A stretch of 21,342 nt of DNA from a virus, in IMG/VR virus record IMGVR_UViG_3300032220_001606, positions 1 to 21,342 of that record; one strand, 5' to 3'. Below the pieces are notes generated by a model. The model saw nothing but the letters and a program-made list of their open reading frames with translations, did no database searches and had not been told where the DNA came from. The position numbers were made by a program, and so were the translations under genes. Shown here piece after piece: positions 9,468 to 21,342 of this stretch. Each line of letters opens with the position of its first letter. Position 1 is the stretch's first letter.

Positions 9468-9759
9468 GTGATTCACCTTTAACAATATGCAGAATTTCCT
9501 TTTCTGCTTTTGCTGTACAAGTCTGTTCAGGTGCACGAAGATGGTTTTCAAATTCAGCCCCAAGCTCATAAGCTGCTTGATTACCTGAAAGGTCTGAGCC
9601 AACACGCACATAATGATGTGACTTTTTATATGCTCGTTGTGCTTCTCGACTTTTTGCTCGTGCCACAAAACCACCATCTAACTGCTTCACCTCATACCCC
9701 AGTTTTTCTAACCAGATTTTGAAGCCTAAGAAGTTTTTCTGTTTTACTACTGGACGCAT
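9442..9759 (-). CDS. Small unknown prophage protein
   Basis: Protein of 105 aa, basic in its first half, with a segment FKIWLEKLGYEVKQLDGGFVARAKS that looks like a small alpha-beta domain, and an aromatic segment SHHYVRVGSDLSGNQAAYELG. No family is recognised. It starts 13 nt inside the end of the helicase gene, so it is translated from the same message, and overlaps the tiny membrane peptide gene at its 3' end. A role with the recombination genes is possible only by position. Confidence 0.8.
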   Translation of the reverse strand: MRPVVKQKNFLGFKIWLEKLGYEVKQLDGGFVARAKSREAQRAYKKSHHYVRVGSDLSGNQAAYELGAEFENHLRAPEQTCTAKAEKEILHIVKGESHGMGYLVA

Positions 9760-11252
9760 AAGGCATTTACCTCAGCTTGGGTGTTATATCCGATAGCTTT
9801 AAACAGTGGGTTCAATGCAGAAATATCTAACTGCTTTTTAGCTCGAGTAGCAGCAACATATAAAAGTCGAGCTTCATCTTCGGTTAGGATTTTTTCACCA
9901 GGTGCAGCAGCTTCTTTATAAAAGAAATCACCACCAAGTTTGACCTTGTTAAACTCCAAGCCTTTAGACTTATGAGCTGTGGTCACAATGCAGTCATAAT
10001 CACTAGAATTACTTTTTAGTAATGAGCTGATTAGAGCTTCTTCACCCACTTTATTGATTAGGCTAACAAGTGCTTTTAAGTCATTTCCAGAGACTTCATT
10101 TGTGTATTCAATGACTTCTTCCCAATTGCTAAAGCCTTCAAATACACTTCCATCGTGGACTTTTATTCCAGATTTAACTTTTTTGGCATCTTCAATGTTT
10201 TTTAATAAAGAACCTGTATCAACTTCCAAACGTGGTTCACGTCCAATTTTTACCAGCTCAACCATGTTGGAAAGGGCAGCAGCATTGGTACGATAGATAA
10301 ATGCATCTGCAACCATATCGGTGACTTCACCAACATTGGAGTCAATTTGTTCAAAACCACGTAATGGAATTTCTTCATCCAAAACATTGAACAAAATTTT
10401 ATTCGCAAGATCAGCAATGTTTTCACCAAAACGGAATGATTGACTTAAACGTGTTTCAGCAATATCTAGGGATTGCATCGCATTGACAGCACCACGAAAC
10501 GCATAGATTTGCTGGTGACGATCACCCACATAAATTACCTGAGCACGTTGCTTACTCAAAACATTCAACATAATAGGATCAGCATCTTGTGCTTCATCAA
10601 ATAAAATAAAGTCAGCATTAATCACTGGATTGCTCAATGCCCAATATTTTAGGTAATGGTCATGTTCGAGACGGTTAATACCAGCAGGATTTAAAATGTC
10701 ATTCCAGTAATCATGTGCCTTAGGTAAAAGGATATTTGCCAATTCAGCACGATATGTATCATCCATCCAATCAGGTAAAGCAGCGTAAACTTGTGATAGT
10801 TGAATTTCGCTGTAATTAGATCGGCAGAAATAACCAACGGCATTCATCATAGATGTGGCCATACGTTTTGAGTTAAATAAACGCTTCTGGTCATCCTCAC
10901 CACGTTGTTTAACCAATGCCACTGGTACTTGATAATTCTCAAGATCATGGCGAGATGCCAATTGGTTTGACATCAAGCGACGATTTTTTAATTTATTGGT
11001 CAGCCAGCGTGGAACTGAGTTATAAGCAAGGCTGTGAAATGTTTTGCACTTAACATTATGGTTAAATTTAGACTGTGCTTCTGTTGCAATAGCCTTGTTA
11101 AATGCCAAGTACATTCCATGTTGGTGATGCTTTGCATTACCAATCAGTTTAAGGGTGGAAGTCTTACCAGCACCGGCGTATGCGGTCACTTTACAAGACT
11201 GACCATGTAATGCCATATCAATGGCATGTTGTTGTTCAATAGTTGGATTCAT
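9747..11252 (-). CDS. UvrD/Rep-like superfamily 1 helicase
   Basis: Protein of 501 aa, shorter than UvrD (about 720), a compact version common in prophages. It shows the Q motif (EQQHAI), Walker A AYAGAGKTS at 24-32, Walker B/motif II DEAQD at 219-223, motif III GDRHQQIYAFRGA near 243-255, motif V TAHKSKGLEF and motif VI LLYVAATRAKK near the C-terminus. All ATPase motifs are present. It should unwind or translocate on DNA, most likely with the RecT and exonuclease encoded just upstream, in prophage recombination or replication restart. A 53-nt gap with a hairpin separates it from recT; the next gene overlaps its end by 13 nt. Confidence 0.94.
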   Translation of the reverse strand: MNPTIEQQHAIDMALHGQSCKVTAYAGAGKTSTLKLIGNAKHHQHGMYLAFNKAIATEAQSKFNHNVKCKTFHSLAYNSVPRWLTNKLKNRRLMSNQLASRHDLENYQVPVALVKQRGEDDQKRLFNSKRMATSMMNAVGYFCRSNYSEIQLSQVYAALPDWMDDTYRAELANILLPKAHDYWNDILNPAGINRLEHDHYLKYWALSNPVINADFILFDEAQDADPIMLNVLSKQRAQVIYVGDRHQQIYAFRGAVNAMQSLDIAETRLSQSFRFGENIADLANKILFNVLDEEIPLRGFEQIDSNVGEVTDMVADAFIYRTNAAALSNMVELVKIGREPRLEVDTGSLLKNIEDAKKVKSGIKVHDGSVFEGFSNWEEVIEYTNEVSGNDLKALVSLINKVGEEALISSLLKSNSSDYDCIVTTAHKSKGLEFNKVKLGGDFFYKEAAAPGEKILTEDEARLLYVAATRAKKQLDISALNPLFKAIGYNTQAEVNALCVQ

Positions 11253-11305: not shown

Positions 11306-12316
11306 TCAAGGTGTAAGTTCTGCTGATTTACGTTCAAATAGTGCGCTAACTTCATCAATTTGTTCATCACTCATTAAACTTGAATTGGGTTCAAAACGTT
11401 CAGCCATAATTGAGTTGATTAATTCGATGGTGTCGGCACTATCCAAATCAACCAGTAATTGCACATAACTTTTACGGTTGGCATACGCAGTAGAAATATC
11501 TGTTTTTGCAGGTTCGCCAAGATCGGCAGGAATTGTTTTAGCTAAAGCCTTTAATTCCTCAATTGTGCTTAGAGCATTAATTTGATTAATGAGCCCTTCA
11601 ACATCAAAATTAGGAGCCATATCTATGACCGTTTCTTGTGATTTTTCACGTTCAGCCATCTGAGCTTTAAGCCCACTCGAACCTTGATGTTTTTTTACCG
11701 TTGATTGAACTGGGGTAACATCAAGTTCTTCACGTTCAGCAATTTCATCTGGGGTATAAACACCTAGAATTACATCGGGTGTATATAAGCGTGACCAACG
11801 TTTAATAGCAAGATACGCAAGTTGTTGGCGTGGATCACTTACCCATAAAGGTGAGTTGCGTACTGAGCCTACTTGTCCCATAGAAATATCAATTTCACGT
11901 GGAGAAGTTTCACCCTTTAATGTTGCCCAGACTTTAATGCCTTTATCCCATGATTTATCTTCCTTGCCGTTGATCTTTGCCCAATCGCCATACCATTCAA
12001 AATTTAAACGACCTGTGATAGGTGCACGATTGGTAATCACAGCATTCACAAGTTGCGCTTCATACCCTAATACACCATTAATTTGATGAGTTTTTTGAGC
12101 TACAGCAAAAGGGTCCATTTGCCACTGTGCTGATTGCATAATGATGGCTAAACAATCTCCAGTATTGCCCTGAAGATGTTTCGGCACTGCAAATTTTGAT
12201 GAAGCCATGACACTTGCAATACGCTCAAAACGATCCATAATTTCAGGATTCATCATGATGTCAAAAGCAGTTAAGTGGGCAATCTGACCATTTTGTGGGG
12301 TTGTTAATGCGTTCAT
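11306..12316 (-). CDS. recT: RecT-family single-strand annealing protein
   Basis: Protein of 336 aa. The first 200 residues show the RecT pattern: DCLAIIMQSAQWQMDPFAVAQKTHQINGVLGYEAQLVNAVI, an acidic and aromatic centre, then DPRQQLAYLAIKRWSRLYTPDVILGVYTPDEI. The last third is a variable, acidic linker and tail with helical segments. It binds single-stranded DNA made by the exonuclease and anneals it to a complement. It follows the YqaJ gene by 11 nt, with AAGGA before the ATG, in the classical exonuclease-annealase pair. Confidence 0.95.
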   Translation of the reverse strand: MNALTTPQNGQIAHLTAFDIMMNPEIMDRFERIASVMASSKFAVPKHLQGNTGDCLAIIMQSAQWQMDPFAVAQKTHQINGVLGYEAQLVNAVITNRAPITGRLNFEWYGDWAKINGKEDKSWDKGIKVWATLKGETSPREIDISMGQVGSVRNSPLWVSDPRQQLAYLAIKRWSRLYTPDVILGVYTPDEIAEREELDVTPVQSTVKKHQGSSGLKAQMAEREKSQETVIDMAPNFDVEGLINQINALSTIEELKALAKTIPADLGEPAKTDISTAYANRKSYVQLLVDLDSADTIELINSIMAERFEPNSSLMSDEQIDEVSALFERKSAELTP

Positions 12317-12327
12317 AATAAAATTCC

Positions 12328-13314
12328 TTAAACTGTTTCTTTAAATTTGTTTGAAATACGGAAAACTCGGGTGCTGGAGGTTTTGCTATATTTCGCAAAT
12401 AAATCAGGTTCTTCTTTTTTCAACAGCGTACTGTCGATACGAGTAGAGGATTGTTCTTTGTAGGTGCAGATAGACTTGCCTTGGCTAATCATCATTTCCG
12501 CATCCTGCATCGTTGAGACAATCTTTAATTTGATTTCATCTTCACGAGCCTTATCTGCTTTTAGACGACCTTGAACAGTGATAAGTTCTTCAGCGAGTTT
12601 GATATGTTCAAAATCAGCTTCGACTTGTTTACCCACAACATGATTTGACCAGCGATGTAAAACATCATCAAAACAAGTAGGATCTGGTGGAACATCAGCA
12701 ATGACATGGTTGAACCAAAATGCTTTAACCTGTTTAAAGATTGATTCAATTAAATCGTCATCACGTTCAATGCGATACATGCGGAACTTATTGCCACCAA
12801 TAAGAACGGCAAGGTGCCATACTTGGAAGCCTGTAAGTTTCATGTACCAAAGACACTGAGTAAGGTAATAGTCTGGAATTTGGTCTGAACCTTCTTCACC
12901 GAATAATTTAGAAAGATATTCAGAAGCTGTTTTACATTCCAAGCCTTGGTCTGTTGTCAGCTTTCCTTCTTTGAAATAAACACGTCCTGCGATATCAGGA
13001 TTAACAACAGCACGGTCAATGTTACCGATAGCCCAAGACTCTCCGATGTTTTCAAGAGATAATTGCTGGGTAATGCGTTGAACTTTCATGCCTGAGCGAC
13101 GTGAGAACTCTTTTGCAACAACATCTTCAAGTAGGTTGCCGAAATGCGCAGACTCATTTTGTGATTCTTTACGCTCACTACGACCTGTTTTGTCTAACCA
13201 TAATTGATATGGTGATTTGTACGGACTAAAACCAAGGATTGCAGCAACGTCTGAACCACCGATACCTTTTTTACGACCTGCAAGAAATTGGTCACGATTA
13301 ACTTGTGTATTCAT
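12328..13314 (-). CDS. YqaJ-type viral exonuclease
   Basis: Protein of 328 aa with the lambda-exonuclease/YqaJ fold. It shows GIGGSDVAAILGFSPYKSP at 17-35, Glu63 in FGNLLEDVV, Asp100 in IGNIDRAV and Glu126-x-Lys128 in LECKTAS, which is the PD-(D/E)XK metal site. A following YYLTQCLWYMKLTG segment is also typical. It should resect double-stranded ends 5' to 3' to give substrate for RecT. The C-terminal 100 residues are helical and may mediate oligomerisation or contact with RecT. Its ATG overlaps the upstream gene by 4 nt (ATGA). Confidence 0.94.
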   Translation of the reverse strand: MNTQVNRDQFLAGRKKGIGGSDVAAILGFSPYKSPYQLWLDKTGRSERKESQNESAHFGNLLEDVVAKEFSRRSGMKVQRITQQLSLENIGESWAIGNIDRAVVNPDIAGRVYFKEGKLTTDQGLECKTASEYLSKLFGEEGSDQIPDYYLTQCLWYMKLTGFQVWHLAVLIGGNKFRMYRIERDDDLIESIFKQVKAFWFNHVIADVPPDPTCFDDVLHRWSNHVVGKQVEADFEHIKLAEELITVQGRLKADKAREDEIKLKIVSTMQDAEMMISQGKSICTYKEQSSTRIDSTLLKKEEPDLFAKYSKTSSTRVFRISNKFKETV

Positions 13315-20276: not shown

Positions 20277-20960
20277 ATGAATCATCGTGATTTGTGTGAA
20301 ATCGGTGCAAAATTTCTAAAACGATCTGAATCTGCAAATGGGCATGGGTGTCATTTCACTATAGTTGAAGCAGCTTGTTATGGTGAGAATCCAGATGTGT
20401 TTGGTATACGTCATGGAGGAATACATGGTCATGGCGTAGGTACTTTCCTATTGGAAGCTAAAATAAGTCGGTCTGACTTTTTGGCTGATAGAAATAAACC
20501 ACATCGTATAAATCCCGAGACTGGTATGGGGAAGTATCGTTACTACATCTGTCCTACAGGTTTAATTAAAATTAATGAATTGCCTGAAAAATGGGGATTA
20601 ATTTACGTCAGTCCAAAGGGTACCTGTAAAGTTATTGCTGGTGTGTTATCCGCACCAAAGATCAAATATTATTGTGAGTGGTCCAAAAAATATAAAAGCC
20701 ACTTTGATCATCATATGATTAAAGAAAATTTTAAAACGTTGGCATTTAATGAGCGAAATATCCAAAACGAATTAAATCTTTTAACGATGGCTTTGGCTCG
20801 TATAGATGATCCTGAACAATTGCTTTATCAGAAAAGAGAATTTTCAAAAACTCTCTTAGAGAATCAGAAGCTTAAACACGAATTACATTTAATTAAACAT
20901 GATCGAAATTTAAAGTCTCTGATTGATGGTTTACCTAATTTGAGAGGTAATCCTGCATGA
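20277..20960 (+). CDS. PD-(D/E)XK nuclease-like phage protein
   Basis: Protein of 227 aa from the ATG at 20277 (MNHRDLCEIGAKFL), with GAGGTGG as ribosome site. A 13-residue longer frame starts inside the previous gene. The core has ENPDVFGIR, then LLEAKISRSDFLAD (the ExK of a PD-(D/E)XK site), then GMGKYRYYICPTGLIKINELPEKWGLIYV. These agree with a phage family of predicted MmcB-like nucleases. The C-terminal 60 residues are a charged coiled coil (ERNIQNELNLL, RIDDPEQLLYQKREF). It is placed directly before the replication gene, so it may act in replication or host DNA processing. Activity is predicted, not shown. Confidence 0.82.
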   Translation: MNHRDLCEIGAKFLKRSESANGHGCHFTIVEAACYGENPDVFGIRHGGIHGHGVGTFLLEAKISRSDFLADRNKPHRINPETGMGKYRYYICPTGLIKINELPEKWGLIYVSPKGTCKVIAGVLSAPKIKYYCEWSKKYKSHFDHHMIKENFKTLAFNERNIQNELNLLTMALARIDDPEQLLYQKREFSKTLLENQKLKHELHLIKHDRNLKSLIDGLPNLRGNPA

Positions 20961-21342
20961 GCAATTTCAACTTTGTTAAAGCTGTACGTCAAATCTCGAT
21001 GCCATCAACAACCAAGTTAGTGGCAATCACTTTGGCTACATACGCTGATTATGAAACTGGTGAATGTTATCCATCTATCCAAACGCTCATGGACGATACT
21101 GGACTATCAAATCGAGCAGTGGGCTTACACATTAAACACATCGAAAATTTAGGAATATTGGTTGTAGATCGTTCAAATGGTCGTCGATCTTATTATCGTT
21201 TTGATGTGGAAATTCTCTCAAAAGCAGTGACGCAGGGTCACAGCTCGGATAATGAAAGCAGTGACTCTGATAACAATACCAGTGACTCTGACGACAGTGA
21301 ACCAGTGACTCTCACGCAACAACCAGTGACTCTGGTGCAAAA
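20957..21342 (+). CDS. Replication-initiation (O-like) protein, 5' part
   Basis: Open at the right edge; 128 codons are visible, starting with an ATGA overlap. Residues about 10-85 form a winged-helix DNA-binding domain (STTKLVAITLATYADYETGECYPSIQTLMDDTGLSNRAVGLHIKHIENLGILVV), as in phage O-type and HTH_36 initiators. A low-complexity, Ser/Asp-rich linker follows, coded by phased DNA repeats that probably are the origin. A helicase-loading part should lie beyond the window, followed by a DnaB- or DnaC-type gene. Confidence 0.85.
   Translation, partial: MSNFNFVKAVRQISMPSTTKLVAITLATYADYETGECYPSIQTLMDDTGLSNRAVGLHIKHIENLGILVVDRSNGRRSYYRFDVEILSKAVTQGHSSDNESSDSDNNTSDSDDSEPVTLTQQPVTLVQ
21225..21335. 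repeat. Iteron-like repeats, candidate replication origin
   Basis: Five copies of CAGTGACtct start at 21225 (variant CAGTGACGC), 21259, 21280, 21303 and 21324, with a partial CAGTGAAC at 21295. The last four steps are 21-23 bp, two helical turns. The copies at 21259 and 21280 are read as SDS and those at 21303 and 21324 as VTL, so the conserved thing is the DNA. The first copy belongs to a GTGAC-N5-GTCAC palindrome (21227-21241). Lambda carries its origin iterons in the same place, inside gene O. Confidence 0.7.

Follow-up and report, generated by a model that had tools for sequence, protein, structure and literature searches.

An O-like initiator gene and its repeat array

The window, a virus record of 21,342 bases, ends within its last gene, which starts at position 20957. 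This gene (20957..21342, + strand) is the 5' part of an O-like replication initiator gene, of which 128 residues are encoded here before the contig end cuts it; the full-length gene product in relatives has 322-323 residues. The N-terminal portion (20957..21214, + strand) encodes a winged-helix head, the presumed iteron-binding domain, which matches Pfam HTH_36 (PF13730) above the cut-off with an E-value of 3.5e-11. The window protein also matches several PHROGs replication-initiator families, the top match being phrog_391, named 'O-like' (E-value of 1.8e-15), over the head. The O-like match and the winged-helix head bear out the first-pass annotation, which had called this an O-type initiator gene.

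The protein of the relative L005 likewise matches HTH_36. An AlphaFold model of its full length is confident over approximately residues 1-90 only, which form a winged helix; residues 94-181, modeled at low confidence, were read as a disordered linker. The repeats described below are encoded within this predicted disordered, low-complexity linker. The head model gives winged-helix matches, a fold common among transcription regulators, and a search of solved structures by sequence returned nothing significant, only weak winged-helix regulators. Pfam Phage_rep_O (PF04492), the family of the lambda O head, is matched by neither the window protein nor that of L005. Lambda O matches PF04492, and its tail matches the C-terminal part of phrog_391. 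Judged from these family profiles, PHROGs joins the window protein and lambda O via phrog_391, though Pfam separates them. A profile comparison of A3 against lambda O using hhalign, with a shallow alignment, gave no meaningful match. Distant nucleotide search of a phage collection with the gene segment (blastn) found no match, and the protein search of plasmids found none.

Within the linker, CAGTGACTCT occurs in four exact copies on the + strand, at 21259..21268 and 21280..21289 (copies 2 and 3) and at 21303..21312 and 21324..21333 (copies 4 and 5), with no further exact copy elsewhere in the window on either strand. The steps between them are 21, 23 and 21 bp. A diverged copy 1, CAGTGACGCA (21225..21234, + strand), sits in the frame of KAVTQGH 34 bp upstream of copy 2; the period of 21-23 bp proposed for the repeat thus holds for the four exact copies and fails for copy 1. 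A perfect dyad, GTGAC-GCAGG-GTCAC (21227..21241), is present at copy 1. The 23-bp step shifts the reading frame, so that copies 2 and 3 read S-D-S and copies 4 and 5 read V-T-L, exactly as the first-pass annotation had it. The contig end cuts the array, and copy 6 (CAGTGACGCA) would begin at 21345, 3 bases past the window. When mismatches are allowed, the motif is counted 16 times in the whole window against 14.4 expected, which is uninformative, unlike the exact clustered copies.

Synonymous recoding of the linker protein with the codon usage of the window yielded at most two copies of CAGTGACTCT in 100,000 trials, and any single 10-mer likewise reached two copies at most in the same recodings. 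Permuting the gene's own synonymous codons (20,000 trials) gave three copies or fewer. As four copies were never reached in the 100,000 recodings, protein-level repetition is very unlikely to be the cause of the array, in line with the original argument. The identical search applied to lambda O as a control recovered the known iterons in three frames, which were not matched in 400 recodings, and a control search of DUF1376-headed initiators and of other window genes returned nothing.

The array in relatives and across head swaps

The right half of the array, beyond the point where the window contig stops, is known from relatives only. Ten relatives finish it, with the sixth copy at gene offset 389; extending the sequence rightward and aligning related prophages, the check suggested at the outset, bore out the prediction. 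The relatives carry six copies of CAGTGAC (seven once) in two frames, and the steps between the six copies are 34, 21, 23, 21 and 21 bp. In L015, positions 1-105 are identical over all 105 bases to window positions 21238-21342, and this contig shows copy 6. Both the window and L015 assemblies therefore break inside the array, with a 105-base overlap. The last copy in relatives has a near-identical dyad box, and the first and last dyads, GTGAC-GCAGG-GTCA(C), bracket the direct repeats.

Comparison of the ten relatives revealed that the repeats are kept as DNA. Variable columns amount to 0/35 in the 7-base cores of copies 2-6, compared to 18/61 between the copies (Fisher p 2e-4), and at third codon positions to 0/17 in the 10-base copies and 5/15 between them (p 0.015); both p values are rough since the sequences are close kin, as are most of the comparison sequences. 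In L013, the most diverged relative, much of the linker peptide is altered and the cores of copies 2-6 are unchanged. The seventh copy, found in one Acinetobacter genome, was gained as one 21-bp, seven-codon unit. Across the whole contigs of eight motif-bearing relatives, every exact copy except one falls in the array. Conservation across frames, which the first-pass annotation had read from the window alone, extends to two or three frames once the relatives are included.

Of 175 Acinetobacter genomes searched with a profile of the head, 20 gave a match, and natural domain swaps are seen in Acinetobacter. In L056 the head is 74% identical and the tail unrelated, and the motif is kept as CCAGTGACTTT; similarly, L052, L053 and L057 have heads of 56-60% identity with other tails and keep AGTGAC in two frames. 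L058 presents the reverse arrangement, in which the tail is 79% identical, the head differs (39%) and another repeat, ACCAGTGCAGCAGATGCA, occurs in three frames. In L073, an L058-type head is joined to a tail nearly identical to that of the window initiator's relatives, and the DNA identity between L073 and L008 leaps to near 100% immediately right of the array. In this L058/L073 type, ACCAGTGCAGNAGNTGCA in three frames replaces the CAGTGAC array. Moreover, L058 and L073 differ by a C to G change at the same base in three copies, which are read in two frames. The two types of Acinetobacter O-like initiator thus share the tail, the array position and the multi-frame repeats, but differ in the winged-helix head (39% identical) and in the iteron (ACCAGTGCAGNAGNTGCA in the L058/L073 type). 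Altogether, these sequence comparisons indicate that among Acinetobacter prophages the repeat tracks the N-terminal winged-helix head, not the C-terminal domain. Since the repeat changes with the head in natural domain swaps, it is most simply understood as the sequence that the head recognizes.

The DUF1376-headed initiators with a related tail (L029 and L030) have no 9-mer cluster of the CAGTGACTCT-array kind; therefore, linker iterons are not universal among initiators with a related tail. For the more distant HTH_36 initiators L066, L068 and L069, the 9-mer search found no repeat of significance, so the evidence for the feature does not extend to the superfamily as a whole. Separately, clusters of AACCA in three frames lie near the tail, right of the array in L058 and L073 and within the L030 gene (1608-2558), a DUF1376-headed initiator that holds seven copies. 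Recoding rarely matched these clusters (2-4 of 500), for a motif picked after looking; they may contribute to a site of unwinding or loading.

A probable lambda-type origin and its alternatives

The ori of phage lambda has four iterons inside gene O. The annotated lambda iterons follow each other at steps of 20, 24 and 23 bp, and, like the copies in the window, they lie in the linker of the initiator gene at approximately two-turn steps (20-24 bp) and in different frames. We conclude that the array very probably represents the iterons of a phage replication origin of the lambda type, embedded in the gene that encodes its initiator. The proposal of an origin with its presumed binder encoded around it is supported, as far as sequence can tell, by linker repeats that are kept as DNA in several frames and follow the head in swaps.

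Compared to lambda, the window motif is different (CAGTGACTCT), the head is HTH_36 rather than Phage_rep_O, the gene downstream of the window-type initiator is not P-like by sequence, and the AT-rich tract is less distinct. That downstream gene matches phrog_1524 (function unknown), not phrog_109, and shares no BLASTP similarity with lambda P; a role as P-like loader thus finds no support from these comparisons. The AT content right of the array is 63-67%, rising to 70%, and another stretch of the gene also reaches 67%; an AT-rich tract is thus too weak to serve as a distinguishing mark.

Two further phage systems provide parallels. Stx phages have the lambda layout with 4 or 6 iterons, and the two additional iterons make O longer by 13 residues (PMC7466680); the extra copy in the relatives of the window likewise adds seven residues. 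In SPP1, oriL lies inside gene 38 and comprises direct repeats, which are read by the encoded origin-binding protein, and an AT-rich unwinding region (PMC6316719). The window array resembles it in having direct repeats within the gene of the presumed binder. In contrast to SPP1, which has a second origin, oriR, the contigs of the relatives contain no second motif cluster. Among the open-licence papers searched, no description of Acinetobacter prophage iterons was found and the motif is absent, consistent with the initial remark that it was unfamiliar from described phage origins. The design is already known from lambda, and the window array is a further example with a motif new to the searched literature.

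By analogy with lambda, we infer binding, unwinding, helicase recruitment and replication at this site. The O-like protein would bind the CAGTGAC copies through its winged-helix head, and because the copies are spaced by approximately two helical turns (21-23 bp), the bound heads would share one face of the DNA and assemble into a complex resembling the O-some. The flexible linker encoded by the iterons presumably tolerates nearly any sequence, which would allow a DNA code to persist there. The tail may then recruit the helicase machinery, with DNA opening expected to the right of the array.

The winged-helix fold of the head, common in transcription regulators, also permits another reading, in which the repeats bind the encoded protein or another regulator and control the O gene or its operon, as an operator or roadblock, rather than the start of replication; such sites could autoregulate. 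However, the array lies approximately 270-400 bp into the gene rather than at a promoter, its spacing and place match those of the lambda ori, and initiator-type tails are retained alongside it, which leaves this regulatory role quite unlikely. We consider it even less probable that the array serves recombination or module exchange between prophages and is retained since it helps to swap initiator heads. Head and array are indeed swapped together, the switch point lies just to the right of the array, and the contig ends of the window and of L015 both fall within it; but the motif differs from one head to another, so that the array offers no crossover sequence in common, and contig ends at repeats are a common assembly effect. 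The least probable reading, tandem duplication of a short linker peptide without any role of the repeats as DNA, would suit the predicted disorder and low complexity of the linker as well as the whole 21-bp, seven-codon unit gained in one genome, but is largely refuted by copies that lie in two or three frames, are not produced by synonymous recoding and co-vary at the same base across frames.

As a lambda-type origin, the array would provide a compact, testable origin in a group of Acinetobacter prophages, along with its initiator. The natural head swaps predict a pairing of head and iteron, and the series could be used to study DNA recognition by winged-helix initiator heads. It would also confirm the lambda design outside enterobacteria, leaving the general view of phage origin construction unchanged.

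A head-HNH fusion and other genes

In L005 (2516-3004), and at the same place in L006, L007 and L008, the gene just upstream of the initiator encodes a fusion of a head with an HNH nuclease. The fusion head is of the L073 type, that is, the head of the sibling initiator, and is 94% identical to that of L058. Codon differences among the four copies of the fusion gene are mostly synonymous. Compared to L073, a stretch of 128 bp (linker and type-2 iterons) is replaced in L005-L008 by approximately 613 bp, which hold the HNH part, the new head and the type-1 iterons, and the flanking pieces are ~84-97% identical. Within two mismatches, the type-2 motif is absent from the four L005-L008 contigs. 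The fusion is absent from the window.

Two further Acinetobacter genomes (L081 and L082, both at 1468-1872 on the - strand) carry HNH genes whose head is different and rich in cysteine; these genes are located directly upstream of, and overlap, O-like initiator genes. Since O-like initiators elsewhere are thus directly preceded by an HNH gene that has its own head, the head-HNH fusion may be a by-product of mosaic recombination. A more far-reaching idea is that head and array form a mobile origin-specificity module, and that the fusion of the old head with HNH could cut old-type origins of competing prophages; we regard this as improbable. If true, a nuclease that has taken over the DNA reader of an initiator would serve to spread or defend an origin type. 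Elsewhere in the window, adjacent genes for a RecT-family protein and a YqaJ-like nuclease (11306-13314, - strand) and a gene for a UvrD-like helicase (9747-11252, - strand) are found.
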